Shown one piece after another: positions 15,773 through 43,891 of a stretch of 64,000 nucleotides of DNA; the first letter of the stretch is position 1, and each line of letters opens with the position of its first letter. Under the pieces are notes generated by a model, which saw only the letters and a program-made list of their open reading frames with translations, was not told the origin of the DNA and did no database searches. The position numbers and the translations under genes are program-made. Origin of the DNA: Daucus carota subsp. sativus (Eukaryota > Streptophyta > Magnoliopsida > Apiales > Apiaceae). The stretch is taken from the NCBI RefSeq assembly GCF_001625215.2, contig NC_030387.2, forward strand, positions 30,279,606-30,343,605, read 5' to 3'.

Positions 15773-16272
15773 ATTCCAACAATAAATTAGGAAACTAAAC
15801 AAAAATCACTCCCCCAATTTTCAATACCCAATCAAAATCTTAAAACAATAAACCAACTAAGCAACAACCTCCACCACAAATACAAACATGCTAAAAATTC
15901 AAATCATCTCCAAAATCTAAACCACCCAGATGCTAAAAATTCAATCTTTATATCTCTAAACCTCTAAAAATCAAATCTTCACAAAGAAACAAGAAACCCC
16001 ACATGAGTAAACATAAAAGCACCAAATACACACAACTAAAAAATATCAAAAATTTACCTAAAAACACAACTTGAGATAGTCATAGTAACAACAGAGCAGG
16101 GCAAAAAAGTACCTCAAATATAGTAAAATTTGCAGTAATGTGAAGAAATGAAAATATGAAGAAACACAGTCTGTTTGAGGCAAAGAGCCAAACACACAGA
16201 GAGGGGTTGGTTTTGGTGAAGTTAAAAAGAGGTTAAGCATGAGTCGGCAAGAGAAGAATGAGGGGCTATGTG

Positions 16273-16804: not shown

Positions 16805-17366
16805 TTGTGTAAGATCCTGATAAAAGAATAAATGGGTTAAAAATGGGTAAATTTTATTATATTTCTTTAAAAAAATCATATTTAAAATATTTTTTATTAA
16901 GTTTTAAGCAATTATTAGTGGTGAATCATAATACAAGACATGTAAATATCACACAATTAATTATAACTTGGTAGGTGATAGCGAAACTTTTATAGATTCA
17001 TACGGTATTGTTTGTTTAAAAAATCGATAAGCACTTATAAAAAAATATGATTTTTAACTCCGTTTCATGATTTCTATTTTTTTTCAAAACACTTTAATTA
17101 TTTATAAGTCTTGACTAACTGTCTAAAATCTACTTCACTTTTTTTGCTATAACCAAAAAACACTTATTTTAAATTCACATAAACATTTTTTTTTTACTTC
17201 TGGCACTTATATTAATAAATTTTACTTCTGGCACTTATATTAATCTATGGTTTAGTCAAGTAAAATGAAACTAAAGACAATATATAATTGGCTAACAAAT
17301 ATTAAAATAAATTTTTGTTGAAAATGTCTTTTCATGTCGTATTCGTTTAATATGTATTATTACTAA
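16805..17366. other. AT-rich distal promoter/spacer of the bHLH gene
   Basis: No gene seen. A short tandem duplication, TTTTACTTCTGGCACTTATAT, appears twice near 17190-17240. The LTR retrotransposon begins directly after. Confidence 0.5.
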
Positions 17367-17371
17367 CCCAT
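17367..17371. repeat. Left target-site duplication (CCCAT) of the LTR retrotransposon
   Basis: CCCAT directly precedes the 5' LTR and recurs directly after the 3' LTR at 31977-31981. Five base pairs is the usual Ty3/gypsy duplication. Confidence 0.93.
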
Positions 17372-17866
17372 TGATAAGGTACCACGCTACAGTAACCGTC
17401 AACAGTACCCGCCCCGCTACAGGACTTGGAGATCCCCAAAGTCAGACCTCATCATTACCGAGTACAAGGCAAACAGGATAATAAGCATGCACAAATCCCA
17501 AAAGGACAGGAAAAAGGACAGTAGTTGCACCAAAACGGCCACCCATGCTGGGGAGTGGCTATAGACCCATTCCCGCCACTGTAGCAACAGTGGCGGCCAA
17601 GGGCCTATATAAAGCACTCCCCAGCCAAAGTGGAAGGTAAGTAAAAATTTCCCCTCAAAACTCTCTCAAAGGCATCTCTCACCAGATATTTAGAGTGAAA
17701 ACTCTCTGATTTCCCTTACTTGTCAAGCATATCCAAATCACTGATTATCACGCCGGAGGCGCCTCACGGGATGTCACCCCCCGTGTAGCGTTGTTTTGCA
17801 GGATAGGTCTTGCCTGAAGCTCCCGGAACAGTGCATTGGAACCCTAGACGAGATTTGGAGTTATCA
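17372..17866 (+). repeat. 5' LTR
   Basis: 495 bp, TG...CA ends, with the element promoter TATA at 17606-17613. Reads as identical to the 3' LTR. Confidence 0.95.
17606..17613 (+). promoter_or_regulatory. LTR TATA box
   Basis: TATATAAA within GGGCCTATATAAAGCACTCC, in the middle of the LTR. Transcription would begin about 30 bp downstream, giving a genomic RNA that starts within the LTR. The same site is at 31716-31723 in the 3' LTR. Confidence 0.75.
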
Positions 17867-17868
17867 TT

Positions 17869-17886
17869 TGGCGCGCCAGGAAGGGG
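17869..17886 (+). other. Primer-binding site
   Basis: TGGCGCGCCAGGAAGGGG begins two bases after the 5' LTR, at the position where a tRNA 3' end primes minus-strand DNA synthesis. The matching tRNA was not determined. Confidence 0.65.
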
Positions 17887-17936
17887 CCTTCTCCCTAAGA
17901 GAAACCTAACCGCATCCCTAGAAGTTGGGTGAATTT

Positions 17937-20900
17937 ATGCAAACTCGATCCGGACTCATAGTAAGTCAGACCAGCAACATGGCAAACCCTCGCCCAAACA
18001 TGCAAAATACCAACCCGCTAAACCCCGACCCTACTAACCCTAATGCTCAAGTAGTCGGCGACGACGTACTCCTACAAGACCTATCACCATCCGGAAACTC
18101 CATCCCAAACGCGGGACAAAACACCAACGCAGTACCCCCCCCGCTCGTTCAAGGGGGGCCCATTGACCTGACAAAATTCACACAGCAACAGATCGACATA
18201 ATGCTAAAAGTGGCATCTGCCTTCCCACAACCTAGGGGGGAGGCACGCGGAAACCATGAACCCCGAGACGAGGAAGAGCGAAGTGAAGCTCATAGCCAAC
18301 CTCGCCCACAAAAGTCCACAGCATCGCACCTTGGACCGTCACAAAACACGAACCACAAAAACCACGGTGGCCAGCAACACCGCCCCTCAACCTGGAAGGA
18401 AAATAGGAGAATCCGGGATCTGAAAAAAGAGCTCGAGGCCAAGCAAGCAGAGTACGAAAAGGCCCGCGCCCGTCTCGAAGGCCGTCGTACCGAGACCCCT
18501 GAGGTTCGCAACGACACAGGAAGCGTCAATCCCTCCAACGCGGACATGCTCAATACGCTCATGGCCCTGAAGAAGCGCCTCGAGGATGGCACCAGTGGTG
18601 AAGCCGGAGAATCCCCTTTTACAAAGAGGCTCGAAGACGAACCAAAGCAAAGGCACATCAAGCACCTCAACCTGAACCCCTTTGACGGGATGGGAGATCC
18701 CGAGGAACACCTCAGCTACTTCAACCAACTGGCCCTGCACTACGAGTACCGCGACCTCACCAAATGCCGTTTCTTCGCCGCCACCCTGAGGGGAAGCGCG
18801 CAGCGGTGGTTCAGTCGCGTCCCGGCCAGGAGCATAGACACTTGGGCCGACTTTAAAAGGGCATTCCTGAATAAATTCAGAGCAAACCAACCTCAGGAGG
18901 TGCACACTTCCTATTTACAAACCATCGGGCAAAGAGAAGGGGAATCCCTGCAGAGCTACATCAACCGCTTCAAGGAAGCGGTCAATAAGATCATCTGTGT
19001 AAACGAGATAGAGGCTCTCGTCCATTTGAAGAGAGGACTTGACCCGTATGAGTGCGAGAAATATGTTGTCAAACTAATGGAAGTCCAGCCTACAACATTA
19101 GCCAAGGCATATGACCTAGCGTCCCAAGCCGTCACGGAAGCGGAATCTCTGGCCGTGTTAAAACGGGCACGAGCACCTCCCGCTAGCAATCAGAAACACT
19201 ACCCCCGTGAACGACACGCCCCCTACCAAAAACCCGTGGAGCAAATGCAAGTTCAAACTACACATGGACCTCCCGCCAACAAAAACAACAACATATCCGT
19301 AAAAGATCGTCTGGGCCCCGCGGTGGGTTTCCGCCCCGAGAAGCGCCCTGAGCCTAATTGGACTAAGTTCAGCCTCAGCCGGTCTGCCCTGTTAAGAGAC
19401 ATTAAAAACAAGCCATTTTACCAAGCACCGCCAGCCATGTGGACAAACCCGGAGGACCGGAACAAAGAGCGCCACTGCGAATATCACGAAACACATGGGC
19501 ACTCTACGGATAGCTGCCTCGCACTCAAACACTTCCTGGAACGACAAGCTAAAGCGGGAAACCTAAACCAATACCTCCCACGTGATCTGCCACCACCACC
19601 ACCACAGGACCATCGAGACGGTCGAAATGTGGTCAATCCCGTCTTCGGCGGCACCGTCACACCCCCTGCCCCAGGCGGGCCTTCAGTGTATGCCATCGCC
19701 CAGGGAGAGGTGCACAGCCCCATATACTTCACACACGCAGACTACGAGGGCATCAACCCGGATCACAACGAAGCCCTAGTCGTATCCCTGGTCATAGCAG
19801 AAAATGAGGTAAAAAGAATATTGGTGGATAATGGCTCCTCTGCAGACATCTGCTTTCAGCACACCTGGGATCGCCTGCGCCTGAACAACGCGGTTCCCGA
19901 ACCCTGCCTGGAGGAGACACCTTTATACGGTTTCGGACACAACGCCGTGCCTATAGCGGGCGTAGCCCATCTGCCAGTCACCTTCGGCTCACCCCCCCAC
20001 CAAATCACCAAGACAATCAAATTTTACATCATCAACGCAGTCTCCTCATACAACATGATCCTAGGAAGACCGACCCTGAATGCGCTCAGAGCAATCCCAT
20101 CGACCTCACACCTCAAAATGAAGTTTCCAACTCCCACGGGGATAGGCGAAATCAAAGGGGACTCTGAAACCTCAAAACGATGCTATGGAATAGCCTTAGT
20201 CCTAGCGGCCACCGAGCCCGGGAACATCAAGCGGGAAAACGCCGACAAGCGAAAGAGGGAGAAGCGAAAGAAACGCGCCGAAAACCTCCAAAGGAAGAAC
20301 AAACGGCACCGAGAGGTGCAAGTAATAGAGACCCATGATCCCACGCACGAAGAACCCCCGCGCATGGACGCCGAGCTCAAGAAATGCTTATTACGGGATG
20401 AGCAACCCGTGGCAAAACCCGCCGTGGCGACAGAGCAAATTCAACTCTCTCCCACCGACCCTACGCGGAAAATCAGCATCGGGGCCGGTTTGGAATCGGT
20501 GTTCAAAAAAGAACTCACAAACTTGCTGCGCGAATACGCGGACGTCTTTGCATGGAGCCCGAAAGACATGCCCGGCCTCGATGAATCCGTGGCCATGCAC
20601 AAACTGAGTGTCGACCCCAAGAAGGCGCCAAAAAAGCAGAAGCGGCGCAACTTCGCGCCTGACCGCCAAAAAGCAATCGACGCGGAAATAGATAAACTGT
20701 TAGACGCGGATTTGATCTGCGAGGTCTCATACCCGGATTGGGTGGCAAACGTCGTACTCGTAAAGAAGGCTAACGGGAAGTGGCGCATGTGCGTCGATTA
20801 CACGGACCTTAATGCGGCATGTCCTAAGGACCCGTACCCGTTACCAAGCATAGATCAACTCATAGACGCAACGGCCGGGCACCTCATGCTCAGCTTCATG

Positions 20901-23660
20901 GACGCATTCTCAGGATACAACCAAATTAAGATGGCGCCAGAAGACTGCGAGAAAACTGCTTTCATCACTCATAGAGGGGTATACTGCTACAAGGTCATGC
21001 CTTTCGGCCTCATCAACGCGGGCGCCACCTACCAACGCATGATGAACAAGATCTTCGCACCACAGTTGGGACGCAACATGGAAGTCTACGTCGATGACAT
21101 GATCGTCAAATCCATGCTCCAAGAGACGCACTTGACCGACCTGCGAGAATGCTTCGCAAACCTCAGAAAACACAACATGAAACTTAACCCCGACAAATGC
21201 ACTTTCGCCCTGGGAGCGGGAAAATTCTTGGGCTTCCTGGTGAGCCAACGCGGAATCGAGGCTAACCCGGAGAAAATCCAAGCCGTCATTGACATGCAAC
21301 CTCCAAAAACCATCAAAGACGTTCAACGCCTCACTGGGCGCCTCGCAGCGTTGCGACGGTTCATATCCAAGCTTGCGGAACGATGCCTCCCTTTCTTCGA
21401 CACCCTCAAAGGAGCACTCAAAACCAAAAAGCTCACATGGACAGCGGAATGCCAAAAGGCCTTTGAGGACCTCAAGACATACCTGGCGTCCGCGCCACTC
21501 TTGACGACAGCGTCCCCTAGCGAACCGTTGTCACTGTATCTGGCAGTTTCTGACAAAACAGTGGGAGCAGTGCTTATTAAGGAAGCGGAAACAGTGCAAA
21601 GACCAGTTTACTATGTCAGCCAAACACTAAAGGACGCAGAAACCCGCTACCCCAATACCGAGAAAACAGCCCTAGCCCTTGTCATGGCAAGCAGGAAGCT
21701 TCGTCACTATTTCCAAGGGCGAGAGATACGAGTCGTCACGAATCAACCCTTGCGTAAAATCCTCCACAAGCCTGAGCTGTCAGGACGACTTATTAATTGG
21801 GCAATCGAGCTCAGCCAATTCCACCTCACTTATATCCCGAGAACCGCGATCAAAGCACAGGCCTTGGCAGACTTCGTCGTGGAGTGTAACTTTGCTAAAC
21901 CAGACGAGGAGGCACCGGACAACCAAAAACCCCTACCGGTAGCGGAAGGGTGGAAGCTTTACGTGGACGGTTCCGCCACCAACACCAGGTGCGGAGCCGG
22001 GGCAATACTCATTAGCCCAGATGGTTTTTGTATAAAACAAGCCCTTCAGCTCAACTTCAAGGCCACCAACAACCAGGCGGAATATGAGGCCCTGCTTTCG
22101 GGTTTAGACCTCGCCCTAACTCTACAACTGCAAAATCTTACCATATACAGCGACTCCCAGCTGGTAGTTCGCCAAACAACAGGTGACTACGCGGTCAAGG
22201 ATTCAACTCTAGCTCAATACCAACAACTAGTGCAGACCCGCTTGTCCACACTCAAAAGCTACCAGCTCCACCAAATAGACCGGGAAGACAACTCATTGGC
22301 TGACAGCCTATCCAAACTCCTAGAGGGAGAATACACGACCTCGGATGGCCCCGTCTACTTCCTATCTCTCCCGCATCCCTCAACAGAGGTCAAGGAACAG
22401 CTCAGCATTGCGCTCAACGAGGACAACTGGATGACCCCCCTCGTCGCTTACCTCCGGAACGGAACTCTGCCAGCCGAGCATAGCAAAGCCCGGCAGATCA
22501 AGGCAAACGCAGCCAAATTCTTCCTACAAGACGATGTTCTCTACCGTCGAAACTTCGACTCCCCCATTCTCAAATGCGTCGATGACGACGAAGCAACATA
22601 CTGCATGCGGGAAGTTCACGAGGGCATATGCGGGGATCACATGGCGGGCAAGGCCCTTACACATAAAATCTTGCGCCAAGGATATTACTGGCCAACCATG
22701 GCAAAAGACTGTAGAGCCTTTGTCAGAGCGTGCCACCAATGCCAGCTCTTCAGCAACGTCCCGCGCGCAGCCCCTGCAGTCCCAGTTTCAATACTCTCCC
22801 CTATCCCGTTCGCTGTGTGGGGAATCGACATTATGGGTCCTTTCCCCAAGGCCCGCGGGGAACTCCAATTTGTCATGGTAGCTATCGACTATATGACCAA
22901 GTGGGCAGAGGCAAAAGCACTCAGGACCATCACCCAAGAAGACGCAATCCGGTTTGTCCGCAACCAGATAATCACCCGGTTCGGTATCCCCACGACTCTC
23001 ATCTCTGACAACGGGACACAGTTCGTAGGAAAGAAATTCACCACCTTCCTCTCTGATCACGGGATCAAGCACAAAAAAGCATCAGTATGCCACCCGCAAA
23101 GCAACGGACAAGTCGAAGTCACAAATCGCATCATCCTTCGCGGGCTAGAAAAAAGCCTCACGGAATCCAAGAAAAAATGGCCAGAACACCTACCCCAAGT
23201 CCTATGGTCCTACCGCACCACGCAGAAAACAAGCACAGGGGAAACACCATTTAAACTAGCATTCGGGGCAGAAGCACTGGCACCGGTGGAAATAGGATCA
23301 CCGTCCTTCCGCATGCAAAATTTCAACATCAACGACAGCATTGAGGGAATGCGGACTAACTTGGAGTTACTAGACGAGGTCCGAGCAGACGCAGTCCAGA
23401 AAATGGAGCTTTACAAAGAAAAGACAAGGGACTTCTTCGGAAAGCGGGTCCGCATGCGGGCATTCCAGGTGGGAGACTTAGTCAACAGAGCAACCGAGGC
23501 ATCAGACCCGCGCCACACGGGCAAACTAATGCCTAAGTGGGAAGGTCCATACAAAATAGCACAAATCATCCGTCCCGGCTCTTACAAGCTATCCCACTTG
23601 GATGGCACGGAGGTCAACAATACCTGGCATGCAGAAAAACTCAAGAAATATTATCAGTAG
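17937..23660 (+). CDS. Gag-pol polyprotein of a Tat-type gypsy retrotransposon
   Basis: A single open frame of 1,907 residues from the first ATG. Gag spans about 240-405. A variant zinc knuckle lies at about 514-527 (C-x2-H-x4-G-H-x4-C). The protease has the plant variant active site V-D-N-G-S-S with D631. Reverse transcriptase spans about 900-1090, with Y-V-D-D at 1051-1054. The first RNase H lies at about 1197-1315 and the second at about 1338-1462, opening Y-V-D-G-S with D1344. Integrase has an HHCC zinc finger from about 1560 and catalytic D1631, D1691 and E1727, an exact DD35E spacing, with a W-E-G-P-Y-K-I tail. No stop or frameshift was found, so the protein set looks functional. Gag and pol share one frame, so any gag excess must arise by another route. 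Confidence 0.95.
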   Translation: MQTRSGLIVSQTSNMANPRPNMQNTNPLNPDPTNPNAQVVGDDVLLQDLSPSGNSIPNAGQNTNAVPPPLVQGGPIDLTKFTQQQIDIMLKVASAFPQPRGEARGNHEPRDEEERSEAHSQPRPQKSTASHLGPSQNTNHKNHGGQQHRPSTWKENRRIRDLKKELEAKQAEYEKARARLEGRRTETPEVRNDTGSVNPSNADMLNTLMALKKRLEDGTSGEAGESPFTKRLEDEPKQRHIKHLNLNPFDGMGDPEEHLSYFNQLALHYEYRDLTKCRFFAATLRGSAQRWFSRVPARSIDTWADFKRAFLNKFRANQPQEVHTSYLQTIGQREGESLQSYINRFKEAVNKIICVNEIEALVHLKRGLDPYECEKYVVKLMEVQPTTLAKAYDLASQAVTEAESLAVLKRARAPPASNQKHYPRERHAPYQKPVEQMQVQTTHGPPANKNNNISVKDRLGPAVGFRPEKRPEPNWTKFSLSRSALLRDIKNKPFYQAPPAMWTNPEDRNKERHCEYHETHGHSTDSCLALKHFLERQAKAGNLNQYLPRDLPPPPPQDHRDGRNVVNPVFGGTVTPPAPGGPSVYAIAQGEVHSPIYFTHADYEGINPDHNEALVVSLVIAENEVKRILVDNGSSADICFQHTWDRLRLNNAVPEPCLEETPLYGFGHNAVPIAGVAHLPVTFGSPPHQITKTIKFYIINAVSSYNMILGRPTLNALRAIPSTSHLKMKFPTPTGIGEIKGDSETSKRCYGIALVLAATEPGNIKRENADKRKREKRKKRAENLQRKNKRHREVQVIETHDPTHEEPPRMDAELKKCLLRDEQPVAKPAVATEQIQLSPTDPTRKISIGAGLESVFKKELTNLLREYADVFAWSPKDMPGLDESVAMHKLSVDPKKAPKKQKRRNFAPDRQKAIDAEIDKLLDADLICEVSYPDWVANVVLVKKANGKWRMCVDYTDLNAACPKDPYPLPSIDQLIDATAGHLMLSFMDAFSGYNQIKMAPEDCEKTAFITHRGVYCYKVMPFGLINAGATYQRMMNKIFAPQLGRNMEVYVDDMIVKSMLQETHLTDLRECFANLRKHNMKLNPDKCTFALGAGKFLGFLVSQRGIEANPEKIQAVIDMQPPKTIKDVQRLTGRLAALRRFISKLAERCLPFFDTLKGALKTKKLTWTAECQKAFEDLKTYLASAPLLTTASPSEPLSLYLAVSDKTVGAVLIKEAETVQRPVYYVSQTLKDAETRYPNTEKTALALVMASRKLRHYFQGREIRVVTNQPLRKILHKPELSGRLINWAIELSQFHLTYIPRTAIKAQALADFVVECNFAKPDEEAPDNQKPLPVAEGWKLYVDGSATNTRCGAGAILISPDGFCIKQALQLNFKATNNQAEYEALLSGLDLALTLQLQNLTIYSDSQLVVRQTTGDYAVKDSTLAQYQQLVQTRLSTLKSYQLHQIDREDNSLADSLSKLLEGEYTTSDGPVYFLSLPHPSTEVKEQLSIALNEDNWMTPLVAYLRNGTLPAEHSKARQIKANAAKFFLQDDVLYRRNFDSPILKCVDDDEATYCMREVHEGICGDHMAGKALTHKILRQGYYWPTMAKDCRAFVRACHQCQLFSNVPRAAPAVPVSILSPIPFAVWGIDIMGPFPKARGELQFVMVAIDYMTKWAEAKALRTITQEDAIRFVRNQIITRFGIPTTLISDNGTQFVGKKFTTFLSDHGIKHKKASVCHPQSNGQVEVTNRIILRGLEKSLTESKKKWPEHLPQVLWSYRTTQKTSTGETPFKLAFGAEALAPVEIGSPSFRMQNFNINDSIEGMRTNLELLDEVRADAVQKMELYKEKTRDFFGKRVRMRAFQVGDLVNRATEASDPRHTGKLMPKWEGPYKIAQIIRPGSYKLSHLDGTEVNNTWHAEKLKKYYQ

Positions 23661-24049
23661 CAGACATGGCCTAATGATTCATAGCATGTAAACGAGCATC
23701 CTTTTGGACTTATATATTATTAACGATGTTTTCCGTTAATTGGCATCCTGATGATTCATCCAACAAGAAGCACATAAAAAGCACAGTATATAAAGCACAT
23801 CTCAACAAAAGCACATAAAAGCACATTTACACACAAGACAAGAGGACAACTCATAATATATAATCCATAGTTTACAAAGATCAGCTAACGACCGCCGCGG
23901 GAACAACGCTACCCGGGTCAAGCCACATCAACATATACCAAGCATATTACAAACACACGCATACGGAACACACAAACAACCATGGACCCCCGAAAACATA
24001 CAACGGGGGTACTTAGGAAATACAACAACTAGCATGGCGGTAACGACAT
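23661..24049. other. Junction between gag-pol and the antisense cassette
   Basis: The convergent 3' ends of the sense polyprotein and the antisense GRF gene. It contains several copies of an AAAAGCACAT word near 23770-23840. No frame was called. Confidence 0.6.
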
Positions 24050-24385
24050 CTAAAACGCCTCATCCTCCTCGCTCGAGTCACTCGCGGAAAGCTCGTTGTG
24101 AATGAGCTGCAACTGCGCCCAAATCGCACCACGGCGTTTCACCTGGCGGGCACGAACACGCTCCATCTTCTTGTGATAAGACTCATGCAGGTCTTTGTTC
24201 TTTTGCATCAACTCCTCAAGGGCACCTCGGGCACGGGTGCTAAGCGGCTCGTCAATCCACACTTCATAGTAACAATCACCCGCAACACAAGCCTCCATAC
24301 GCCGCCCAGCATTCCGGCCACCCCAGATAGTCTTCATTACCACAGGACGATCACAGTAACAGCGAGAGCCTACAAGATTGGACAT
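24050..24385 (-). CDS. Small GRF-type zinc-finger protein carried by the retrotransposon
   Basis: 111 residues from the ATG at 24385. Residues 9-45 form a GRF-type zinc finger: C9-Y-C11, then the N-A-G-R core at 25-28 and C33, C38, then W43-x-D45. GRF fingers bind single-stranded nucleic acid in several repair proteins. A charged helical region, K/R/E rich, follows at about 55-95, and the tail is acidic (SDSSEEDEAF). A longer reading to an ATG at 24442 is less likely: with the TATA box at 24467-24474, transcription would start near 24440. The gene is antisense to the element. Short GRF-plus-coiled-coil proteins are common in plant genomes, but their role in retroelements is not known to me. 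Confidence 0.75.
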   Translation of the reverse strand: MSNLVGSRCYCDRPVVMKTIWGGRNAGRRMEACVAGDCYYEVWIDEPLSTRARGALEELMQKNKDLHESYHKKMERVRARQVKRRGAIWAQLQLIHNELSASDSSEEDEAF

Positions 24386-24466
24386 GGTTAACACAATTTT
24401 TGCAGCACGCAAGGATGAAACAACAAAGGTGGGGAGGAGCATAATACCTCCGTTTCAGGGGCAGGC

Positions 24467-24474
24467 TATTTATA
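24467..24474 (-). promoter_or_regulatory. TATA box of the antisense GRF gene
   Basis: TATAAATA on the minus strand, about 85 bp before the chosen start codon. A G-box (CACGTG, 24486-24491) lies 12 bp further upstream. Confidence 0.6.
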
Positions 24475-24854
24475 CTACTCCCTCGCACGTGCCTGGCAGC
24501 CACCTGTCACAAAGCAAGCATATAACCTAAGGGAAAGGATGACCACCGCCATTCCTCCCCTAGACCAAATCCACACGCAACAACAAAAATATAGCAAGGC
24601 ATGGCCGCGTATCCGCAACCATGCCCTGACAACGGCAAGGCTCCAACCTGTAAACTCGAGCAAGCAACACAAAGCACAAGCATACACACGCAACTAAAAA
24701 GCAAAACAAAAGCATATTAAACGCACAGCCCAAATCCACACACAAGTCAACCGCCATTGTACGGCAAATTACAATCCCAAAAGAATAAGTTCAAATAGTC
24801 TAACCAGCCAAGTTCAAACGTAACTTCACAAGCAACAGCTTAAAGACAAAGGAA

Positions 24855-27763
24855 TTAAAGGGTGGGGGTCTCGGTCGAGTCATCGACAAGCTCTTCATCT
24901 CCCTCCGGGGTGGCAGCTTCGGTTCCAGGTTGCTTCTCTGCATCAGCCATGACCGTGTCCGGGTTCTCCCTTTCCTCAGCTGCGGAGCGGGAAACCTCTG
25001 TCTCCTCCGCCGCGGGATTCTCATCCACGGTTTCCAAAGCTTTTGGACTCTTTGTCCCAGCACTACCTCCAGAGCTACCACCCGCGCTCTCAAGCTCTTT
25101 CACCCGGTCGGCAAGCTTCTTGTTCTTCTTCTTCCTTTTGTGTGCCTTAGACTTCGCCTTCTTCAAGGAGGATGCCAGATCTGCTACCCGCTTTTCCAAA
25201 GCGTCAACACCGGAAGAAGAACCACCCGCGCCCGCCACTAAGCTCAAATACTCTGCACTTTCTTTCACAGAAGCGACTCCCTCCTCAAAAGCTTTGGCCA
25301 AGGCAGCCCGATATTCAACACTAGCCTGATATTTCCGGATGGCCATCTCCTCAGTGGGTCGCGACGCAACCACAGCTTCAGCTTCTTCGGCACGCTTACG
25401 CAGCTCGGTGAACGTCCGCTCCGAGGCCGCCTCCTTCCCCTCCCAAAACAGCCTTTGAGTCTCCAACTCCTTATCCGCAAGGCCCCTTCGATCCGAAAGC
25501 ACCTGCCAGTCAGCTTTAAGAGTCTCCATTTCTTGGGCAAGTGCTTTCTTCTGATCCTCGACTGCATGAAAGTTCTCCACCAAGGTCTTCTTTTGACCTT
25601 CCAGATCAGCAACCTGCTTCCGCAGTGCGATGTTGTCCTGGCGGAACATTTCTCCTCGGGTGCTTAACGCCAAGTCATACCCTCGAGCCTGCAACAACCA
25701 TCAGAAAACATATCACAACCCACAGACACGGAATTAAAACGCTAAGTACAAAAGCAAATGCACAAACACATACCTTCCTGTGATGGAGCTCGGAACGACG
25801 CACCAGCTTCTTCCAGCCCAGCCCATCCATCTTTTCAACATCATCCTCAGTGAGGCCAACCTGTCCTGGTGGCCCGGCTCCAAACAAATTACCTCGCCCC
25901 ACACGACGGGCATCCACAGGTCCCACCTCATCTTCGGTCCCGGACGCATTTCCAGCACTGACACCCGCCATCAAATCCACATTTCCGCGGCGCTTCACGC
26001 GGCGCCCAATTTGGGCACTCAGGGTCAACTTCCGACCACTGCCAGCACTGCGAACCCGTTTTCTCCGCCTGGAAACCTCGGGAGTTCGCCCCTCTGTTGT
26101 CGGGTTCTCCAGCATCAATACAGTCGACGACCCGCCGACCTCGACACCTTCTTTCTCCCCAGCTGCACGGGACGATGCCGCCTCCACAACTTTCCCGCCA
26201 GCCGGCGCGCTGACCTCAGCTTCACCCTCCCCGCCAAGACCATCGTCAAAATCGCCCGCGGTGGTATGACCGCCACCTTCTCTTTCTTCACTATCCGCAA
26301 TCTCATGGATCTCAGGACTCTTTTCCACCTCCTCCTCATCATCATCTGCATCCCCAAACACATCTTGGGTTTCCACCTCCTCACTTGGCACATTTTCTTC
26401 CTGCTCAGTCACGGGTTCCGGTTCATCCCTCAAAAGCAGCACACGGCCTCGGGACGCCGTTCCCGAGGTCGAAGCACCAATGGCCGTTCCCGCAGGTTGC
26501 ACCACCGCCCCCCGTGTCGCCCTGGCAGCCGCGCGCCCCGCCCGGCTTTGAGCCAGCGTACGCCGCCTTGCCTGCGACCGCCCCTCACCTTCAACCCGGG
26601 CCGCACCCCTATACCTAGGGGGATTTCGGTTTAGCAGGCCCGTGAGCAATTTCATCTCTTCTTCAGCAGTCATGCCCTCCAAGGGCGGCAACTCCGTCAA
26701 TCGCGGGTCCAGGACTGCAAAAATCAAGCAACATATCACAACACTATGAAACCAAAAAATCACCAAACACAAAGCAAACTCCCCCCACATTCAGTAAAGT
26801 CAAAAACTTACGCAGATATAGTTGCAGCCTCCCGTTCTCAAAGAAGGCATTCTTGGTCCAGGTACTCCCCAACGCCTTCGTAATACCAACCAGTATCTCC
26901 ACGTCAACCGCGGACAATTGATCCCGCGGCGCGCGATAACTCTTCTCTACTTTCCGGGCTATATTAGGCATCCACGCCAGCTCGCCACCCGCCACCACCA
27001 GAAACTCATACTGCCAGTCCGTCATGCTATTCGGAAAATCAAAGGGCATATAGTCCACAAGCTCTCTGCCAATCACGCTGCTCTTATTGGCGAAAGGCAA
27101 CTCCACAAACGGCTTGGCCGTGCTCGTCTTGATATTAAACAGGTGAAAGAATGCCTTCAAGGTAGGCTGCTTCCCCAGAGCGGTGCAACTCGCTATGAAC
27201 CAGTTAATAGCCCGGATCGCGTTGGGCGTGATCTGCGAGATAGAGCACTTCAAATGCACGCAGACAAGGTCCCACATGAAGCGATGCATCGGGAACCTCA
27301 AGCCCGCCTTCAGCTGTTCGAGGGTCACGCATATGGACCCGCCAGCACCACGATGGTGCAACCTCTCCTCTTCCCGGGCAGGCCTCCAGCTATAGTCACT
27401 CCCAAACCTAAAAAGCTTCGACATATACGGCCCATACTCCGCCACATTGAACGTGCTCCTCCTCTGAAGATGATCACAGTCTGCCAGTTCTTGCTCCACT
27501 TTGGCATTATTTATCTCCACCGGGCGTATCTTGAAGGTCCGATAGAAACTACTCTGATCCTCAAAAAACCTGTAATGAAGGTCTTTCGGAGGGAGCGGAA
27601 TAGTAAACCGCGGAAAATCCCGCCATCGACCAGACAAGCTAATCAGCGGCCTTGCCTCCCGCGTCACGGGATCAAAACAATCTTCCCCGGGCATGGCAGC
27701 CATTTCTTCTTCAGTACCCGGATGAATAGCTTCCAGACGCACCTCTTCAACCACAGCAGTCAT
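24855..27763 (-). CDS. Spliced antisense protein of the putative gypsy-type transposon (Transposase_28-like) family
   Basis: Three coding exons on the minus strand: 27763-26812, 26714-25774 and 25688-24855. Both introns are GT-AG (GTAAGT and GTATGT donors, TTGCAG acceptors) and the phases match, giving 908 residues. Residues of about 140-215 contain a segment like the plant Transposase_28 domain (V-T-L-E-Q-L-K-A-G-L-R-F-P, then PNAIRAINWFIASC). Exon 2 is low-complexity and acidic with basic patches (RRRKRVRSAG). Exon 3 is mostly coiled coil and includes a lysine-rich nuclear-signal-like stretch (KKAKSKAHKRKKKNKK). Despite the family name, no transposase activity is established, and the function is unknown. 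The start is the first ATG after a 5' intron acceptor. No stop interrupts the frame, so it is under coding constraint or very young. Confidence 0.82.
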
Positions 27764-27770
27764 CAATTAC

Positions 27771-28363
27771 CTGCAAGATGGCCACACAGAGAACAGCCCG
27801 TTACATACATCGTCTCAATCCCGTCAACAACGGCGGCATACAGACAGACAGAAACACATTGCGCAAACAACCTGTTACCCGCAACCCCCATACAAACATA
27901 TTATCAAACACCTACAGTACAAACACGTGCAACCGCCGCATATTACAAACCTTAAAACTTCGACCTAACCCTAATGGTGCACAACCCGAGACGACAATCC
28001 CGAGGTCGGTACATCGCCCTCATACCGCAAACGCCACCGTCAAGACGGCAGCCACGGCAACAAAAGCTTCACTACTCCCACCACAAATCAAAGACGACAA
28101 CACACACATTCAGACGATTGACATAACTAAAGGGCAAGACCTAACACACCGATCTGCTCACACCACGGCATGAACGCAAGATTACGACACTCAGAAACGC
28201 CGGCGAAGCAACCAAACACATAAAGCACAGTAAAAGCAACAGCAACACGATGAAAACAAAAAAAAAAAAAAGCAGAGTACACAGACATCAACAAGATACG
28301 ATTCAGCCGCAACATTAAAAGAAAAGCCAAGCATAAACTTGGAGGATCGCCGGCGATGCTTAC
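27771..28363 (-). other. 5' leader intron of the antisense Transposase_28-like gene
   Basis: A CAG|GTAAGC donor at 28363 and a CTTGCAG acceptor at 27771 frame a 593-nt intron that ends seven bases before the start codon. Inferred from splice signals alone. Confidence 0.55.
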
Positions 28364-28502
28364 CTGTTAACGGAATGACAAAGAGAACGGTTGCACTTTA
28401 CTCCTCCGGACGACCTCTCGCAACTTACAGGTGAAAAAGCGGAGCACTTCGAAAAAACTAAAGCTTCGGACAAATACACTCAAAACTGGGTTTTAAGACA
28501 TA

Positions 28503-28510
28503 CATATATA
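28503..28510 (-). promoter_or_regulatory. TATA box of the antisense Transposase_28-like gene
   Basis: TATATATG on the minus strand, about 140 bp upstream of the leader-intron donor. A G-box CACGTG lies at 28548-28553, 38 bp further upstream. Confidence 0.5.
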
Positions 28511-28919
28511 CTCCCACAATTACCAAGAGATGCATTAACTGCATGGCCACGTGCACACACACGATTGGCTCAGAAACTGCACCATCACACCCACCCCTCC
28601 TCAAAAGCCGCATAAACCGTACTTAATCCCCAAAAAACCCCCAACTTTGAAAACCGGTGTCTCTTCGATTACCCATGTACACAACTACATATACGCCACT
28701 CTACTTATCAAATCTCACCCACAACATTCTCGCATTCAATTTTATTCCCCATTTATTACCCACTTTATTAACAGTCATAAATTGGTCGAAGACAAAAAAC
28801 ATAAATACAAGCAAGCCAAAAGCCAGCGGGAAAGCAACATACTTCACATATATATATTAAGATTCTTTTTTTTTAATACAAGCCACAGCGGACTCAGTCC
28901 GCGACAAGGAAGCCCTACT

Positions 28920-29318
28920 CTACAGCTGAGCCTCCAAGTCCGCAATGCGGGCTTGGACATCCGCTAGCCTCTCTTGCAACTCGTCCCTTTCTTCCCGGGC
29001 CGCAGTCAACCTCTCCGCCACCGTAGCCTCCGGCGCGGGTTCCGGACGGTCAATGGGTACATACCACCGCCCATTGATCTGCACCGCCGCTCGTCCGCGT
29101 CCCGGGACCAGCATCCTCTCATACACCTCCTCAAGGAGGTCGTCGTAGGGAAGGCCGTCCTCCAGCATATCGGCCAACCTCCTAGCAAACGGATCGGTCG
29201 GCAAATCATTGAACAAGGTCAGAAGTTCAACCCTCCTCATCCAACGCATCTGCGTCCTATAGCTCCCACTGGACACATCACTCCCGTTGCTAACAGACGC
29301 TGAAGAGTTGTCAGACAT
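28920..29318 (-). CDS. Small antisense coiled-coil protein A, retrotransposon cassette
   Basis: 132 residues, not assigned to a named family. A Ser/Asn-rich head (MSDNSSASVSNGSDVSSGS) precedes a helical segment (RRLADMLEDGLPYDDLLEEV), a central P-G-R-x-R...V-P-I-D core at about 70-90, and a C-terminal heptad-rich coiled coil (TVAERLTAAREERDELQERL). It aligns end to end with the protein at 30450-30836, so the two are duplicates. It is antisense to the element, with its own TATA box about 105 bp upstream. The open frame and conserved core suggest a real protein. Confidence 0.68.
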   Translation of the reverse strand: MSDNSSASVSNGSDVSSGSYRTQMRWMRRVELLTLFNDLPTDPFARRLADMLEDGLPYDDLLEEVYERMLVPGRGRAAVQINGRWYVPIDRPEPAPEATVAERLTAAREERDELQERLADVQARIADLEAQL

Positions 29319-29420
29319 TCTTCACGATACTTCCACAAGAAAAAGAACGATCTAACGATTACAAGGGAGAAAAGAAGATAAAACGCACAGATGAAGTGCA
29401 CAAATGAACTTCTCCAGCCC

Positions 29421-29427
29421 TTATATA
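29421..29427 (-). promoter_or_regulatory. TATA box of antisense gene A
   Basis: TATATAA on the minus strand (context GGCTATATAAGGGCTGG). A CTAGGGAA word about 70 bp upstream recurs at a similar place before gene B, suggesting duplicated promoters. Confidence 0.6.
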
Positions 29428-29669
29428 GCCACAGCCACAGCCCCGTAATAAAAGCAGATGGAGTTCCCGAAGCGTTCAAACTTCCCACAGGCGTTCCCTA
29501 GGTCAGCTACAACTCAAACGCACCTGGAAAACCAGCGGTCAACAGTCTCCTCAGTGAATGTCTGTGCAGTACATTTAATGCACGCGTACACCCACACCCC
29601 TAACGGTCACCCGAGTCAACTACCCGCGACCAGCAACACTGCCACTCCTAGTACCACCCCGCCAGCTAA

Positions 29670-30304
29670 CTTCCCTCATTATTGGCCGCGTCCAATACTT
29701 GGGGGGCACATTTTCATTTTTATTCAAATTTTTAATCTTCCCTCATTATTGGCCGCGTCCAATACTTGGGGGGCACATTTTCATTTTTATTCAAATTTTT
29801 AATCTTCCCTCATTATTGGCCGCGTCCAATACTTGGGGGGCACATTTTCATTTTTATTCAAACTTTTAATCTTCCCTCATTATTGGCCGCGTCCAATACT
29901 TGGGGGGCACATTTTCATTTTTATTCAAAATTTTTAATCTTCCCTCATTATTGGCCGCGTCCAATACTTGGGGGGCACATTTTCATTTTTATTCAAAATT
30001 TTTAATCTTCCCTCATTATTGGCCGCGTCCAATACTTGGGGGGCACATTTTCATTTTTTTTTTCAAATTTTTAATCTTCCCTCATTATTGGCCGCGTCCA
30101 ATACTTGGGGGGCACATTTTCATTTTTATTCAAATTTTTAATCTTCCCTCATTATTGGCCGCGTCCAATACTTGGGGGGCACATTTTCATTTTTATTCAA
30201 ATTTTTAATCTTCCCTCATTATTGGCCGCGTCCAATACTTGGGGGGCACATTTTCATTTTTATTCAAATTTTATCTTCCCTCATTATTGGCCGCGTCCAA
30301 TACT
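29670..30304. repeat. 67-bp tandem repeat, nine full copies plus a partial tenth
   Basis: Each unit begins CTTCCCTCATTATTGGCCGC, continues through a run of six G residues (CTTGGGGGGCAC), and ends in an AT-rich ATTTTCATTTTTATTC segment. Copies are almost identical and differ mainly in T-run length. The array lies between the two small antisense genes. Open frames that cross it on the plus strand are artefacts of the repeat. Confidence 0.95.
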
Positions 30305-30449
30305 CATGTTTTGTTCGCATTAAAACCTTATCGCAGGAGCTCACACAACAAAGACAAAACAAGGCGATATGCGAATCCAATAAACAGCTTTGCATTAGGA
30401 CAGGAATAAAATTACAATCAGACACGGGCTATTCCCGCATCGAAACTAC

Positions 30450-30836
30450 CTAAGGAAGCTGAGCCCTCAGCTCCGCTATCCGCTCATCTACAGCTTTCAG
30501 CCTGGTAAGCAGGCCTTCCCTCTCCACCTCCGCGTCCCGCAACCGCTCCCGCACCGTGACACCAGGAGGAACCGGCGGGTTGTCAATCGGCACCATCAAC
30601 CGCCCGTCCACCTCCTCCGCGTCCCGGGCGCGACCCGGTAGCAGAAGCTCATGGTAAACAATCTCCAGAGCAGACTCATAGGACTGCTCCTCGTCCTCCA
30701 AAGCCTCCGCGATTCTCACCGTGATAAGCTCGGCCGGCAACCGGCGAATCCGGTTGATCAGGTCCTGACGCCGGCGCCACTCGCTCGACCGGCCATAGGA
30801 CAGGTTAGAACTAGCTGCAGAGCTGTCGGAAGACAT
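30450..30836 (-). CDS. Small antisense coiled-coil protein B, retrotransposon cassette
   Basis: 128 residues from the ATG at 30836. Same layout as protein A: Ser-rich head (MSSDSSAASS), helix with R-I-A-E-A-L-E-D, central P-G-R-A-R...V-P-I-D core, then TVRERL and a coiled-coil tail ending L-R-A-Q-L-P. It shares about one third of residues with A by eye. The start lies six codon-free bases after a GCAG acceptor, so a leader intron is likely. The longer frame to 30902 uses a non-ATG start within that intron and is rejected. No named family was recognised. Confidence 0.68.
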   Translation of the reverse strand: MSSDSSAASSNLSYGRSSEWRRRQDLINRIRRLPAELITVRIAEALEDEEQSYESALEIVYHELLLPGRARDAEEVDGRLMVPIDNPPVPPGVTVRERLRDAEVEREGLLTRLKAVDERIAELRAQLP

Positions 30837-30841
30837 ATCAC

Positions 30842-30949
30842 CTGCACAAAACAAACCAAGGCAAGACGACCGGTTACAAGTTCCGATCAGATAACAAAGC
30901 AAGAAAACAGATGATCACTACGCCAACAGGCCTAGACTCGAACACTCAC
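30842..30949 (-). other. 5' leader intron of antisense gene B
   Basis: The donor G|GTGAGT at 30949 and acceptor TTTTGTGCAG at 30842 define a 108-nt intron just before the start codon. Inferred from splice signals. Confidence 0.55.
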
Positions 30950-31020
30950 CAATATTGCAGAGACAAGCTTTTACAAAGATACGCGATGAACTGAGCACTT
31001 TTCACCAAGATAAAACTCCC

Positions 31021-31028
31021 TTTATATA
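31021..31028 (-). promoter_or_regulatory. TATA box of antisense gene B
   Basis: TATATAAA on the minus strand, about 190 bp before the start codon and 72 bp before the leader-intron donor. Confidence 0.6.
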
Positions 31029-31462
31029 GACAGCACTCCAGCCCTTTGAACTTCAGCCGTTACTTCCCTAGGCAGTTGAAGCGCCAAAAATACACATCCA
31101 TCAGCCCCGTCAAAAGCCTCATGCATGTATCTGTGCCAGTAATTAATTGGCACAAATATCCGCACAGAATACCATCAGTCAAATTAACCTGGCATGCAGA
31201 TACGACATCAACCACTCACAGCACGCCACGTGGAAAAACCGTACATTCCCCATACGGAACGACAAGACCAGGCGGCAAAAGGCTTCACACCTTTTGAAAA
31301 TTTTGAAATCCATGGCCCAGCAAACACAACCCGGGTAAATCACGCCAATAACCCGCCACCTCAGCCCAGCCACTCACAACAAACACGCTCGCCCACATAC
31401 AACCCGGAAGTGCACCTTTGCGGGAAGGATTTTACTTACTCCCCCCACCCGCTAAAGCAGAT

Positions 31463-31478
31463 GGAAGGAGTAGGGGGG
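31463..31478 (+). other. Polypurine tract
   Basis: GGAAGGAGTAGGGGGG, purine except for one T, directly before the 3' LTR. It primes plus-strand DNA synthesis in LTR retrotransposons. Confidence 0.75.
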
Positions 31479-31481
31479 CAA

Positions 31482-31976
31482 TGATAAGGTACCACGCTAC
31501 AGTAACCGTCAACAGTACCCGCCCCGCTACAGGACTTGGAGATCCCCAAAGTCAGACCTCATCATTACCGAGTACAAGGCAAACAGGATAATAAGCATGC
31601 ACAAATCCCAAAAGGACAGGAAAAAGGACAGTAGTTGCACCAAAACGGCCACCCATGCTGGGGAGTGGCTATAGACCCATTCCCGCCACTGTAGCAACAG
31701 TGGCGGCCAAGGGCCTATATAAAGCACTCCCCAGCCAAAGTGGAAGGTAAGTAAAAATTTCCCCTCAAAACTCTCTCAAAGGCATCTCTCACCAGATATT
31801 TAGAGTGAAAACTCTCTGATTTCCCTTACTTGTCAAGCATATCCAAATCACTGATTATCACGCCGGAGGCGCCTCACGGGATGTCACCCCCCGTGTAGCG
31901 TTGTTTTGCAGGATAGGTCTTGCCTGAAGCTCCCGGAACAGTGCATTGGAACCCTAGACGAGATTTGGAGTTATCA
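31482..31976 (+). repeat. 3' LTR
   Basis: 495 bp, read as identical to the 5' LTR and followed by the CCCAT duplication. Confidence 0.95.
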
Positions 31977-31981
31977 CCCAT
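31977..31981. repeat. Right target-site duplication (CCCAT)
   Basis: Matches 17367-17371. Removing the element plus one copy rejoins host sequence TTACTAACCCAT and ACATGTG. Confidence 0.93.
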
Positions 31982-32553
31982 ACATGTGTTTTTCTGATTA
32001 TGACACTCTGGTTTGGTTTGAAGGGTTCAGATCATTCAATTGACGGAGGATTTTACAAGAGAGGTAAGTCCAGGTAACAAAATCATGGATCAAAGAATTA
32101 CATACATGTCACACAATAGCCTCCCTACTCTTTGCAAATAGAGATATGGTCTGCGTACATTTTAATTGTGCTCGGCATATAATGGGTATGTTGGTTTGGT
32201 CTGGTTTATTATTTTAGGAGTTAACTAATCAAAGTGTAACTAAAAATTGACCCAAATAATATATTTTGATGGATAATGATATATATTTTCTCTAATAAGA
32301 TGTAAGCATCAAAAAAATTATCCAAGTACATAAAAATAAAAAAATACTTATCACTTGTAATTATATATTTTTTAAAAAGATAAATACTTTTTAAAATTCC
32401 GCCAAACAGCTCCTACATTCGGTCCCGGGGGGGGGGGGGGATTTGTTGTGGATTTTCTGCCCACTTAATTATGTAAAGACAAAAAAACAGATGTATGGAT
32501 GTAAACCACCCTAGCACCTAAATCTCTACCTCCTTTTTTCTTTTATTTTAAAT
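31982..32553. other. Host spacer right of the LTR retrotransposon
   Basis: AT-rich. It includes a 14-nt poly-G run at 32427-32440. No gene recognised. Confidence 0.45.
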
Positions 32554-33060
32554 AGTGAAAAAAGCCGCGCTTCGCGGCGGAGTTATGAATTTTTTATAAA
32601 TTTAGACAAAAAATTGTTTTAGCTACTTTACCGTCAAACATAATACTAATAAAAAATTATTATTATTTAGGTAAAAATTAATTTGGGCCACCCTCCCCTT
32701 AAACACAATACTAATAAATAATTTTTTTTATAAAGTTTGATACGAAATACTATTATAATTCCATAAAAGTTATTTTCAGTCGTGTTCCCGTTAAACATAT
32801 CTTCAATATATCTTATCGAAAATAAGAATTGTATATATTACTTTACATATCTTAAATATAAATTGTATTTTATCTATTATTATTAGTTTGAATAAATATA
32901 ATCCTATTTGTTTTGGATTACTAAATAAGAAAAAGAATTGTATCATCTTTAGAATTCAATAAGAAATACTATTGTATCATCTTTAGAGTTTAATAAGAAA
33001 TACCAAATAAGAAAAGAACTGTATCATCTTTAGAATTAAATAAGAAAAGAATTGTATTAC
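32554..33060 (-). mobile_element. Helitron-like unit E (5'-truncated)
   Basis: On the minus strand it ends with the hairpin GCCGCGAAGCGCGGC (32564-32578) followed by TTTTTTCACTA, the 3' end form of the intact copy at 35453-37375, although the terminal CTAG reads CTAT. The body matches sequence near the 5' part of the other copies. Its own 5' terminus is missing. Confidence 0.55.
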
Positions 33061-33968
33061 ATAAAGCCGCGCTTCGCGGCGGCGTTATGATTTTTTTATA
33101 ATTTTGATACGAATTAATATTATAATTGCATAAAAGTTATTTTGAGTCATGTTCCCGTTAAACATATCATTAATAAAGAAAATATTATAATAATTATAAA
33201 AATTTGTTTAAGTGACCCTCTTGTCAAACACAATACTAATAAAAAAAATAGTTTGAACCGCCCTCCCATCAAAGATAATATTAATCAATAATTATTATAA
33301 TTATGATAAAATTAAATATAATAATATAGATAAAAATAGTTTGAGCTGCTCTCTTGTCAAACACAATACTAATAACAAATAGTTATAACATAGATATTAG
33401 TTTGAGTCGCCCTACCCCTACCGTCAAACATAATACTAATAAAAATTATTAAAATTACGATATGATAAAGTTAAAGATTATGATTGGATAAAAATTAATT
33501 TCAGTTGTGGTCCCGTTTTAATAAAGAAAATAATATTATAACTTAGATAAATATATTTTAGCCGCTTTTCCGTCAAACATAATACTAATAGAAAATTTAT
33601 TATTATTTAGATAAAAATTAATTTGGGCCGCCCTCCCCTCAAACACAATACTAATCAAGAATCATTTACATTATAATAAAATTATAATTATAATCGGATA
33701 AATATATCCAATTTCATAGATTTTAACTATTATATATTTTTTTAAGATTTCTATTTCTTAATTGTTTAGAATTATCTCTCTTTTCTTTTAAGATTCCTAT
33801 TTCTTAACTACTTAGAATTTCATAGATTTTAGCTATTATATTTTTGTTAAAATTCCTATTTCTTAACTACTTAAAATTATATCTCTTTTACGATTATTGT
33901 ATTTTAGCTACTTTACCTATTTTCTTTCAGAAAAATAGAAAAACTAAACGGAGAGTTTATAGAGACGC
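33061..33968 (-). mobile_element. Helitron-like unit D (both ends degraded)
   Basis: A minus-strand hairpin GCCGCGAAGCGCGGC lies at 33066-33080. The opposite end near 33950-33968 reads TGGCGTCTCTATAAAC, resembling the GCGGGCGTCTC block next to the 5' end of the intact copy. The body has the shared CAAACACAATACTAAT words. Confidence 0.5.
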
Positions 33969-35087
33969 CACCTAAAGCCACGCTTCGCAGCGTCGTTATA
34001 AATTTTGATATGAATTAATATCATAATAACATAAAAATTTGAGTCATCTTCCCGTTAAACATATTACTAATAAAAATTATTATAATTAGTAAAGATATTT
34101 GTTTAAGTGGCCATCTTGTCAAACACAATACTAATAGTAAAATTAGTTTGAACCGGCCTCTCGTGAAAGACAATATTAATCCATAATTATTATTTTTATG
34201 ATAAAATTAAATATTATAATTTAGATCAAAATAAGTTTGAGCCGCTTTCTTGTCAAACACAATACTAATAACAAAGTATTATAATTTAGATATTAGTTTG
34301 AGTCGCCTAACTGTCAAACACAATACTAATAAAAATTATTTTAATTATGATAAAATTAAAGATTATAATTGGATAAAAATTATTTTGAACCATGGAACCG
34401 TTTTAACAAAAAAAATATTATAACATGGATAAAAATTATATTAGCCACTTTCCCGTCAAACATAATACTAATAGAAAAATTATTATTTTTTAGATAAAAA
34501 TTAGTTTGGGCTGCCTCCCGTGCCCGTCAAACACAATGCTAATCAAGAATCATTTACATTATTATAAAATCAATATATGATTCCTATTTTATATATCCTA
34601 TTTTTTTTGTTAATTATTTTTATTTTATGATTCCTATTTATTGGTTAAAAATTATTATTCTTTTATGGTTCCAATTTTTTTGCTATTAGTTTTTTTAATG
34701 ATTAATATCTTTACAATCCTTTTTTTTATACGAAATTTTAAAAAAATTATAAGACTAAATTGAAAATAAAAATTATACGTATTACCCTACAAATCCTAAA
34801 TATAAATTGTATTTTATCTATGATTGTTAGTTTAAATGAATATAATCCTACTCCTTTTAGGATTCATAAATAAGAAAAGAATTGTATTGCCTTTGGAATC
34901 CAAAGCGAAAAGAATTGTAATAACTTTTGAAATCCTTGAACCTGATTTTTTAAATATAAACCTATTTTTTTTTTAGGATTACTAAATAAGAAAAGAATTG
35001 TATCATCTTTAGTTATCAATAAGAAATACTAAATAAAAAAGAAAAGAATTGTAGACGCCCGCATCCTCCTTTATATATATATATTGA
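33969..35087 (-). mobile_element. Helitron-like unit C
   Basis: The 5' terminus (minus strand) is TCAATATATATATATAAAGG at 35087, preceded by A. A decayed hairpin, with two mismatches in the stem, lies at 33977-33991 at its 3' end. The body is non-coding and carries the shared TCAAACATAATACTAATAGA word. Confidence 0.6.
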
Positions 35088-35452
35088 TTCAACTACATCT
35101 TCAATATATCTTATCGAAAATAAGAATTGTACATATTATTTTACAAATCTTAAATATAAATTGTATTTTATATATTATTATTAGTTTGAATAAATATAAT
35201 CCTATTTTTTTTAGAATTACCAAATAAGAAAAGAATTATATTATCTTTAGGATTCAATAAGAAATACTGAATAAGAAAAGAGTTGTATGATCTTTAGAAT
35301 ACAATAAGAAAAGTGTTGTATTACTTTTAGAATTCTTGAACCTTATTTTTTGAATTATAACTATATTTTTTCTCCGAAATTTAAGAAAAATCAGAAGACT
35401 GAATCGAACAATTCTGGAGACGCCCGCATCCTCCTTTATATATATATATTGA
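35088..35452 (-). mobile_element. Helitron-like unit B (5' stub)
   Basis: The minus-strand 5' end TCAATATATATATATAAAGG starts at 35452, directly abutting the 3' CTAG end of unit A. After 365 bp it is interrupted by the 5' end of unit C. Confidence 0.58.
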
Positions 35453-43679: not shown

Positions 43680-43891
43680 ATTTCAAATAATTGTTTTTTT
43701 GCCAACAATAATATTCACATAATAAAATTTATTAAAAGAGAAAAAAATTTAATATTATTCAAAAATAATTATAATCTAATAAAAAACATAAAAGTTAATT
43801 TTAATTGTTTAGTTAATTATATATTAAAATTTAGTTCCATGCATTTATTTAGATAATTATATCCTAAAAGTAATTTAATAAAAGAATTGCA

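Follow-up and report, generated by a model that had tools for sequence, protein, structure and literature searches.

A young Retand-type retrotransposon of carrot with four candidate antisense genes, each preceded by a promoter-like signal

A 64,000-nt stretch of the carrot genome (Daucus carota subsp. sativus, RefSeq assembly GCF_001625215.2, contig NC_030387.2, positions 30,279,606 to 30,343,605 of the forward strand), hereafter the window, in whose coordinates all positions are given, contains a Ty3/gypsy retrotransposon of 14.6 kb (17372-31976) with a block of antisense genes between pol and the 3′ long terminal repeat (LTR). The initial annotation had described a gypsy element of the Tat type carrying several antisense coding genes, each with a promoter-like signal, and this description holds; all four minus-strand open frames that it listed are present. 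The framework of the element comprises the following features:

17367-17371 and 31977-31981: target-site duplication CCCAT, 5 bp
17372..17866, plus strand: 5′ LTR, 495 bp, TG...CA ends, same sequence as the 3′ LTR
17867..17886, plus strand: putative primer-binding site adjoining the 5′ LTR, recognised from sequence only
17937..23660, plus strand: gag-pol, a single sense frame with gag, reverse transcriptase, RNase H, a second RNase H-type domain and integrase
31463..31478, plus strand: polypurine tract just ahead of the 3′ LTR
31482..31976, plus strand: 3′ LTR, 495 bp

The antisense block, referred to below as the cassette, holds the following features:

24050..24385, minus strand: antisense gene 1, GRF-like zinc-finger gene with a charged tail, 111 aa
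24468..24474, minus strand: TATA box of the GRF-like gene, first base 24474
24855..25688, minus strand: TRP28 coding exon 3, coiled-coil-like tail and stop
25774..26714, minus strand: TRP28 coding exon 2, charged low-complexity middle
26812..27763, minus strand: TRP28 coding exon 1, with the Transposase_28 domain (PF04195; 45.6 bits, cut-off 26.2)
27771..28363, minus strand: predicted intron in the TRP28 5′ untranslated region (UTR), 593 nt, GTAAGC...TTGCAG, 40% T
28504..28510, minus strand: TATA box of the TRP28 gene, first base 28510
28920..29318, minus strand: CC1, acidic, 132 aa, confidently predicted C-terminal helix
29421..29427, minus strand: TATA box of CC1, first base 29427
29670..30304, no strand assigned: tandem array of 67-bp units, 9.4 copies, separating CC1 from CC2
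30450..30836, minus strand: CC2, 128-aa paralogue of CC1
30842..30949, minus strand: predicted CC2 5′-UTR intron, 108 nt, GTGAGT...GTGCAG, 42% T
31022..31028, minus strand: TATA box of CC2, first base 31028, surroundings aligning with the CC1 promoter

The two LTRs are identical at 495 of 495 positions and begin and end with TG...CA, and this identity and the identical CCCAT duplications are two of the features by which recently active elements (PRAREs) are recognised, alongside size relative to a cluster consensus. The element is very recently inserted and structurally near-complete. Its internal region measures 13,615 bp, of which 7,821 bp separate the end of pol from the 3′ LTR. Within gag-pol, the Pfam matches follow the order RT_RNaseH, RVT_3/RNase_H and H2C2/rve, and none at E up to 0.01 corresponds to a chromodomain. 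No RNA family was found within 17000-32500 at gathering scores. The succession of reverse transcriptase, RNase H, second RNase H and integrase is the Ogre/Retand arrangement of angiosperms (PMC6317226; here and below, statements on published work refer to the accessible portions of the sources cited). From the second RNase H between RNase H and integrase and the lack of a chromodomain match, the antisense TRP28 gene between pol and the 3′ LTR, and the long pol-3′ LTR region with its tandem array (67 bp × 9.4), we infer that the element is of the Retand type within the Tat clade.

Comparison with described elements is consistent with this placement. Retand PRAREs, among them the Silene Retand, likewise have a single gag-pol frame (in 59% of those clusters), a long region between pol and the 3′ LTR, an antisense TRP28 gene and a tandem array in that region (PMC11963269), and a second RNase H ahead of the integrase is shared with the Retand elements of PMC6317226. 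The LTR length of 495 bp falls inside the PRARE range of 315-1,194 bp, whereas the pol-3′ LTR distance and the internal region exceed the PRARE maxima of 6,566 and 12,869 bp (PMC11963269). Ogre elements also belong to the Tat clade and carry extra frames, but their gag-pro and pol lie in two frames split by an intron, in contrast to the one frame at 17937-23660, and the plant mobile domain frame common in Ogre (PMC6317226) has no counterpart here, PF10536 being unmatched in the antisense frames scanned.

Antisense genes are a hallmark of the Retand lineage, so that the type of gene is already known, and what the carrot element adds is the gene set and its promoter structure. The statement in the initial annotation that single antisense frames occur in some Tat elements understates their spread, which is lineage-wide in Retand, with antisense TRP28 genes in 97% of clusters (PMC11963269). 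That survey, in which 63 clusters are tabulated, reported 104 antisense open reading frames (ORFs) of at least 600 bp, 57 of them TRP28, a domain predicted to bind DNA; it used ORF Finder, which would not join spliced exons. Extra ORFs are also cited for the Silene element Retand-2 (ORF3/4; PMC11728184). The carrot element differs from the surveyed PRAREs in having four antisense genes, three of which fall under the 600-bp limit (PMC11963269). In the accessible open-licence literature on such elements, we found no description of GRF-like or CC-like antisense genes, of a promoter-plus-gene duplication or of introns that can be spliced from the antisense strand alone.

In the TRP28 gene, the three coding exons join into 2727 nt encoding 908 aa with one stop, which is terminal, and the spliced Transposase_28-like protein proposed in the initial annotation is thereby recovered, with the 593-nt 5′-UTR intron as a likely addition. 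The coding introns measure 97 and 85 nt, and all four predicted introns of the cassette (two coding, two in 5′ UTRs) have GT-AG ends and contain 40-49% T, compared with 18-25% T in coding exons. The open frames of the three exons, of 340, 371 and 280 codons, lie beyond chance expectation, since 226 codons was the greatest stop-free length that 300 resamples produced. A structure model of exon 1 was unusable, with a mean predicted local distance difference test score (pLDDT) of 34. On the sense strand, a 377-codon open frame (26822-27955) overlaps exon 1 and is probably a codon-bias shadow of the antisense TRP28 gene.

Relatives were sought in a protein collection with CC1, the GRF-like protein and TRP28 exon 1 as queries, which returned 10 (one being the window's own protein), 7 and 5 matches, respectively; the window's own protein aside, these are 60-99% identical to their queries and come from contigs of at most 2,851 bp. 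Three of the five TRP28 relatives reach past the donor site, and identity runs to RLQLYL and through RK, the latter encoded across the donor site in the window; the two more distant ones diverge after RK and the 98%-identical one stays similar. This pattern fits an exon end at that point. When neutral change was simulated from the window codons (400 simulations per relative), the TRP28 substitutions proved milder than expected in P0019-P0022, with 8, 0, 1 and 0 simulations reaching the observed score; P0018 has too few changes to be scored. Among viral contigs, the queries TRP28, reverse transcriptase and an alignment of the CC proteins had 18, 3 and 25 pattern matches, respectively, none of them a relative, and the same holds for the 65 pattern matches to the TRP28 alignment in genome contigs. 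With the reverse transcriptase as query, 14 pattern matches in genome contigs led to one locus (L001), too distant to use. It lies at 2803-3618 of JAPYPR010000051.1, a contig titled as an Erythrobacter metagenome-assembled genome, and its gypsy-type reverse transcriptase shares 36% identity with that of the carrot element; the contig is probably a misbinned eukaryotic one.

The GRF-like protein displays the complete pattern of four zinc-binding cysteines with a GR core (CYC...NAGRRMEAC...GDC, read from the alignment by eye), which we take to be the mark of GRF zinc fingers, and all four cysteines are kept in five of the seven relatives (P0011-P0015). Of eight proteins scanned for PF06839, five gave a match with E no higher than 0.1, the lowest value being 0.0063; no sequence match to the GRF-like protein was found in the PDB. 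The protein is a putative nucleic-acid binder. Its start is more likely at 24385 than at the upstream in-frame ATG at 24442, because the latter, 32 nt from the first TATA base, is close to the expected start of transcription itself. Two relatives, P0012 and P0013, start at the equivalent of 24385, and P0011, P0014 and P0015 carry upstream residues.

CC1 and CC2, the two small paralogues of the initial annotation, are indeed related, being 44% identical, with isoelectric points of 4.5 and 4.9. The CC1 model (mean pLDDT 71.6, predicted template modelling score 0.29) is confident only at the predicted C-terminal helix, residues 100-131. CC1 scores 20.3 bits against Phage_gene29 (PF10910), under the cut-off of 29; 9 of 11 members of the CC family match PF10910 at E up to 0.1 (best 1.4e-05), and one relative, P0010, bears a precomputed PF10910 label. 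We read this match as a putative similarity in coiled coil or composition. The promoter regions of CC1 and CC2 can be aligned along some 130 nt that include the TATA box, with a score reached by 10 of 500 resamples, and since this is better than 490 of the 500, each promoter was probably duplicated along with its gene. For the remaining five promoter pairs, the alignment score was equalled in 69-413 of 500 resamples. Derivation of all four promoters from one duplicated module was rejected, as only the CC1/CC2 pair aligns better than nearly all resamples, and so was a common origin of the CC, GRF and TRP28 proteins, BLAST linking CC1 and CC2 only.

Each of the four genes is preceded by a TATA box. 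The positions given for these boxes in the initial annotation (24467, 28503, 29421 and 31021) are, within 1 nt, the other ends of the boxes starting at 24474, 28510, 29427 and 31028. The minus strand of 23661-31481 contains 8 TATAWAW sites against 1.04 expected, a count that none of 1000 first-order resamples reached; four of the eight (28856, 28854, 23862 and 23716) lie away from gene starts. Such a box lies 79-147 nt upstream of each of the four predicted 5′ ends, compared with 7.9% of random cassette positions having one 60-160 nt upstream, a distance range chosen after the data had been seen. The 5′ end was taken as the ATG for the GRF-like gene and CC1 and as the donor of the predicted 5′-UTR intron for TRP28 and CC2, where TATA and ATG are 747 and 192 nt apart, and the count of four out of four accordingly leans on the intron predictions.

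Ten further promoter motifs, picked after looking, were counted on both cassette strands. G-boxes (CACGTG) occur at 4 places against 1 expected and lie no more than 350 nt upstream of three of the four TATA boxes, that of CC1 excepted; because of the manner in which the motifs were picked, this remains a lead. Observed and expected counts are 6 and 4.3 for RY, 32 and 22.0 for CCAAT (20 of them in the array), 16 and 34.7 for ACGT, 2 and 1.0 for ABRE, 62 and 56.2 for E-box, 14 and 5.0 for AATAAA, 36 and 27.5 for Dof, 34 and 66.9 for TCP-like, and 4 and 6.0 for MYB motifs. The 67-bp array, situated downstream of CC2 and upstream of CC1, holds 10 CCAAT boxes per strand and 8 AATAAA signals on the minus strand, and its unit includes a CCAAT palindrome (ATTGG-6 nt-CCAAT). 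In such a position, the array could end the CC2 transcript and enhance CC1.

From the element's anatomy, its open frames, the one clean spliced frame, the promoter-like signals, the paralogy and the relatives, we infer transcription, nuclear action and a regulatory role of the gene set, and consider it moderately probable that this is a Retand-type element with a self-promoted set of four antisense genes for nuclear regulators. The genes would probably be RNA polymerase II units, each driven by a TATA promoter of its own and not by the LTR promoter, which produces the genomic RNA. Minus-strand introns cannot be spliced from sense genomic RNA, where their splice sites are unreadable, and the antisense genes would therefore keep their introns through replication, which makes this orientation a sensible one for intron-bearing genes; the antisense layout would also keep the 3′-end signals of these genes off the genomic RNA. 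TRP28 and the GRF-like finger would most likely be nuclear nucleic-acid-binding regulators, acting on transcription of the element or on the entry of its DNA into chromatin, with CC1 and CC2 most likely serving as small oligomerising partners that tune a TRP28/GRF complex.

A described parallel is gene23 of maize Grande, which is likewise antisense, located between pol and the 3′ LTR and transcribed from its own promoter (here a promoter is only predicted), and whose protein is nuclear (PMC7264820). This, along with the DNA binding predicted for the TRP28 domain (PMC11963269), lends the proposed role indirect support. For Grande one gene is described, whereas the carrot element has four, some of them with predicted introns and two of them duplicated along with their promoter. 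By analogy, and with no claim of homology, the set may also be compared with HBZ of the human T-cell leukaemia virus, an antisense nuclear regulatory protein of a reverse-transcribing element (PMC11963269, PMC7264820); the HBZ promoter lies in the 3′ LTR, whereas the promoters predicted here are inside the internal region.

Several observations weigh against a working set of four genes and bear on an alternative that we regard as doubtful, namely that only TRP28 works and that the GRF and CC frames have no function of their own, being short open stretches on a G-rich strand, remnants in decay or segments of a single long antisense transcript. The small frames are within chance length, the longest stop-free run in the resamples averaging 124 codons, and because length alone is ordinary, it is homologues, paralogy and promoters that speak for the small genes. 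The homologues are gene calls, which favour intact frames. In the neutral simulations, the observed score was reached 26, 24, 60, 62 and 240 times out of 400 for five CC1 relatives (P0004 having too few changes, and P0001-P0003 and P0007 being left out) and 49, 56, 66 and 23 times for four GRF relatives (too few changes in P0011 and P0014, and P0012 left out), counts that do not set purifying selection apart from neutral change. The zinc finger named in the initial annotation stands as regards its complete four-cysteine pattern but not its Pfam score, which at 15.8 bits is below the PF06839 cut-off of 25.9, and relatives P0016 and P0017 are without cysteines or N-terminus, so that some GRF copies are decayed or cut. 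A structural search of the PDB with CC1 returned 12 matches, none at E ≤ 0.001. Since gag-pol has no protease match in Pfam at E up to 0.01 (although a DNGSSAD stretch resembling a protease motif can be seen by eye), completeness of the element is only partly established. In the literature, conserved antisense frames are described by the survey from 600 bp upwards only and are chiefly TRP28 (PMC11963269), and two published findings speak against strong constraint: the extra frames of Retand elements are highly heterogeneous, with Transposase_28 in just 23% of those studied (PMC6317226), and Retand ORF3 and ORF4 are far more divergent than gag-pol between two Silene species (PMC3290532).

Other evidence favours the small genes. 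Besides their 44% identity and common promoter, CC1 and CC2 yield a ratio of nonsynonymous to synonymous divergence (dN/dS) of 0.45 by NG86 (bootstrap 0.24-0.69, 496 of 500 replicates usable), with dN 0.58 and dS 1.10 by LWL85, values to be read against a synonymous distance near saturation (1.30); YN00 gave no estimate. CC1 relatives at 70-98% identity keep the length of 132 aa in six of nine cases and are free of gaps in the five scored, the GRF cysteines persist in most relatives, and a TATA box stands at a plausible distance from every frame.

It is also conceivable, and in our estimation quite improbable, that the antisense RNA itself matters, pairing or interfering with the genomic RNA or feeding small-RNA production or antisense self-control, with coding being secondary. 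Such a role has been raised for the antisense genes of plant elements (PMC7264820), antisense control is known from Ty1 (PMC12786077), and antisense TATA sites are spread along the 3′ part of the sense unit; however, the protein-level constraint and splice structure of TRP28 and the conservation of the CC1/CC2 proteins point to translated products. Finally, capture of the block from host genes, or nesting of another mobile element, would agree with a gene-like structure with introns and promoters but is very improbable, given that the block is flanked by pol and the polypurine tract, the position that it also has in other Retand elements, that similarity to TRP28 was not found outside transposable elements (PMC11963269), that 23661-31481 contains no repeat pair of at least 100 nt except the 67-bp array (shorter terminal repeats were not sought) and that, in a scan of six frames, no Pfam family except Transposase_28 exceeded its cut-off.

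The reading of a self-promoted regulatory gene set may, more tentatively, be extended. In this extended and rather speculative form, the four separately promoted antisense genes would constitute a multi-gene accessory programme rivalling those of complex retroviruses, expressed apart from the genomic RNA, with G-box promoters for three of the genes, the CCAAT-palindrome array as CC2 terminator and CC1 enhancer, and products that jointly switch or protect the element in the nucleus. Small antisense genes might then be widespread in Retand elements and have been overlooked, since only long unspliced frames are kept in surveys.

The surroundings of the element show further features. A long minus-strand frame (13997-15802), with a basic helix-loop-helix (bHLH) domain recognised by eye, lies about 1.6 kb from the insertion site, and the young element thus appears to sit near a host gene. 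Directly after the element follows a very AT-rich block (32789-37375, GC content 0.22-0.26) with several interspersed repeat families of 107-285 nt. At 2324-2989 there is a perfect inverted repeat with 308-nt arms, 100% complementary and 50 nt apart; long hairpins of this type can be a source of small RNAs or the trace of a recent palindromic insertion. Inverted repeats resembling miniature inverted-repeat transposable elements are located at 13066-13407 (160-nt arms, 22 nt apart) and 43073-43891 (171-nt arms, 477 nt apart).

In some plants, Retand-type elements make up a large share of the genome, about 11% in Silene vulgaris (PMC3290532), and the function of their antisense proteins is not known. 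With its full gene set, visible splice structure and separable promoters, this young copy supplies concrete proteins and start sites for testing. Should the small genes prove real, part of the lineage's accessory gene content has escaped surveys confined to long unspliced frames.

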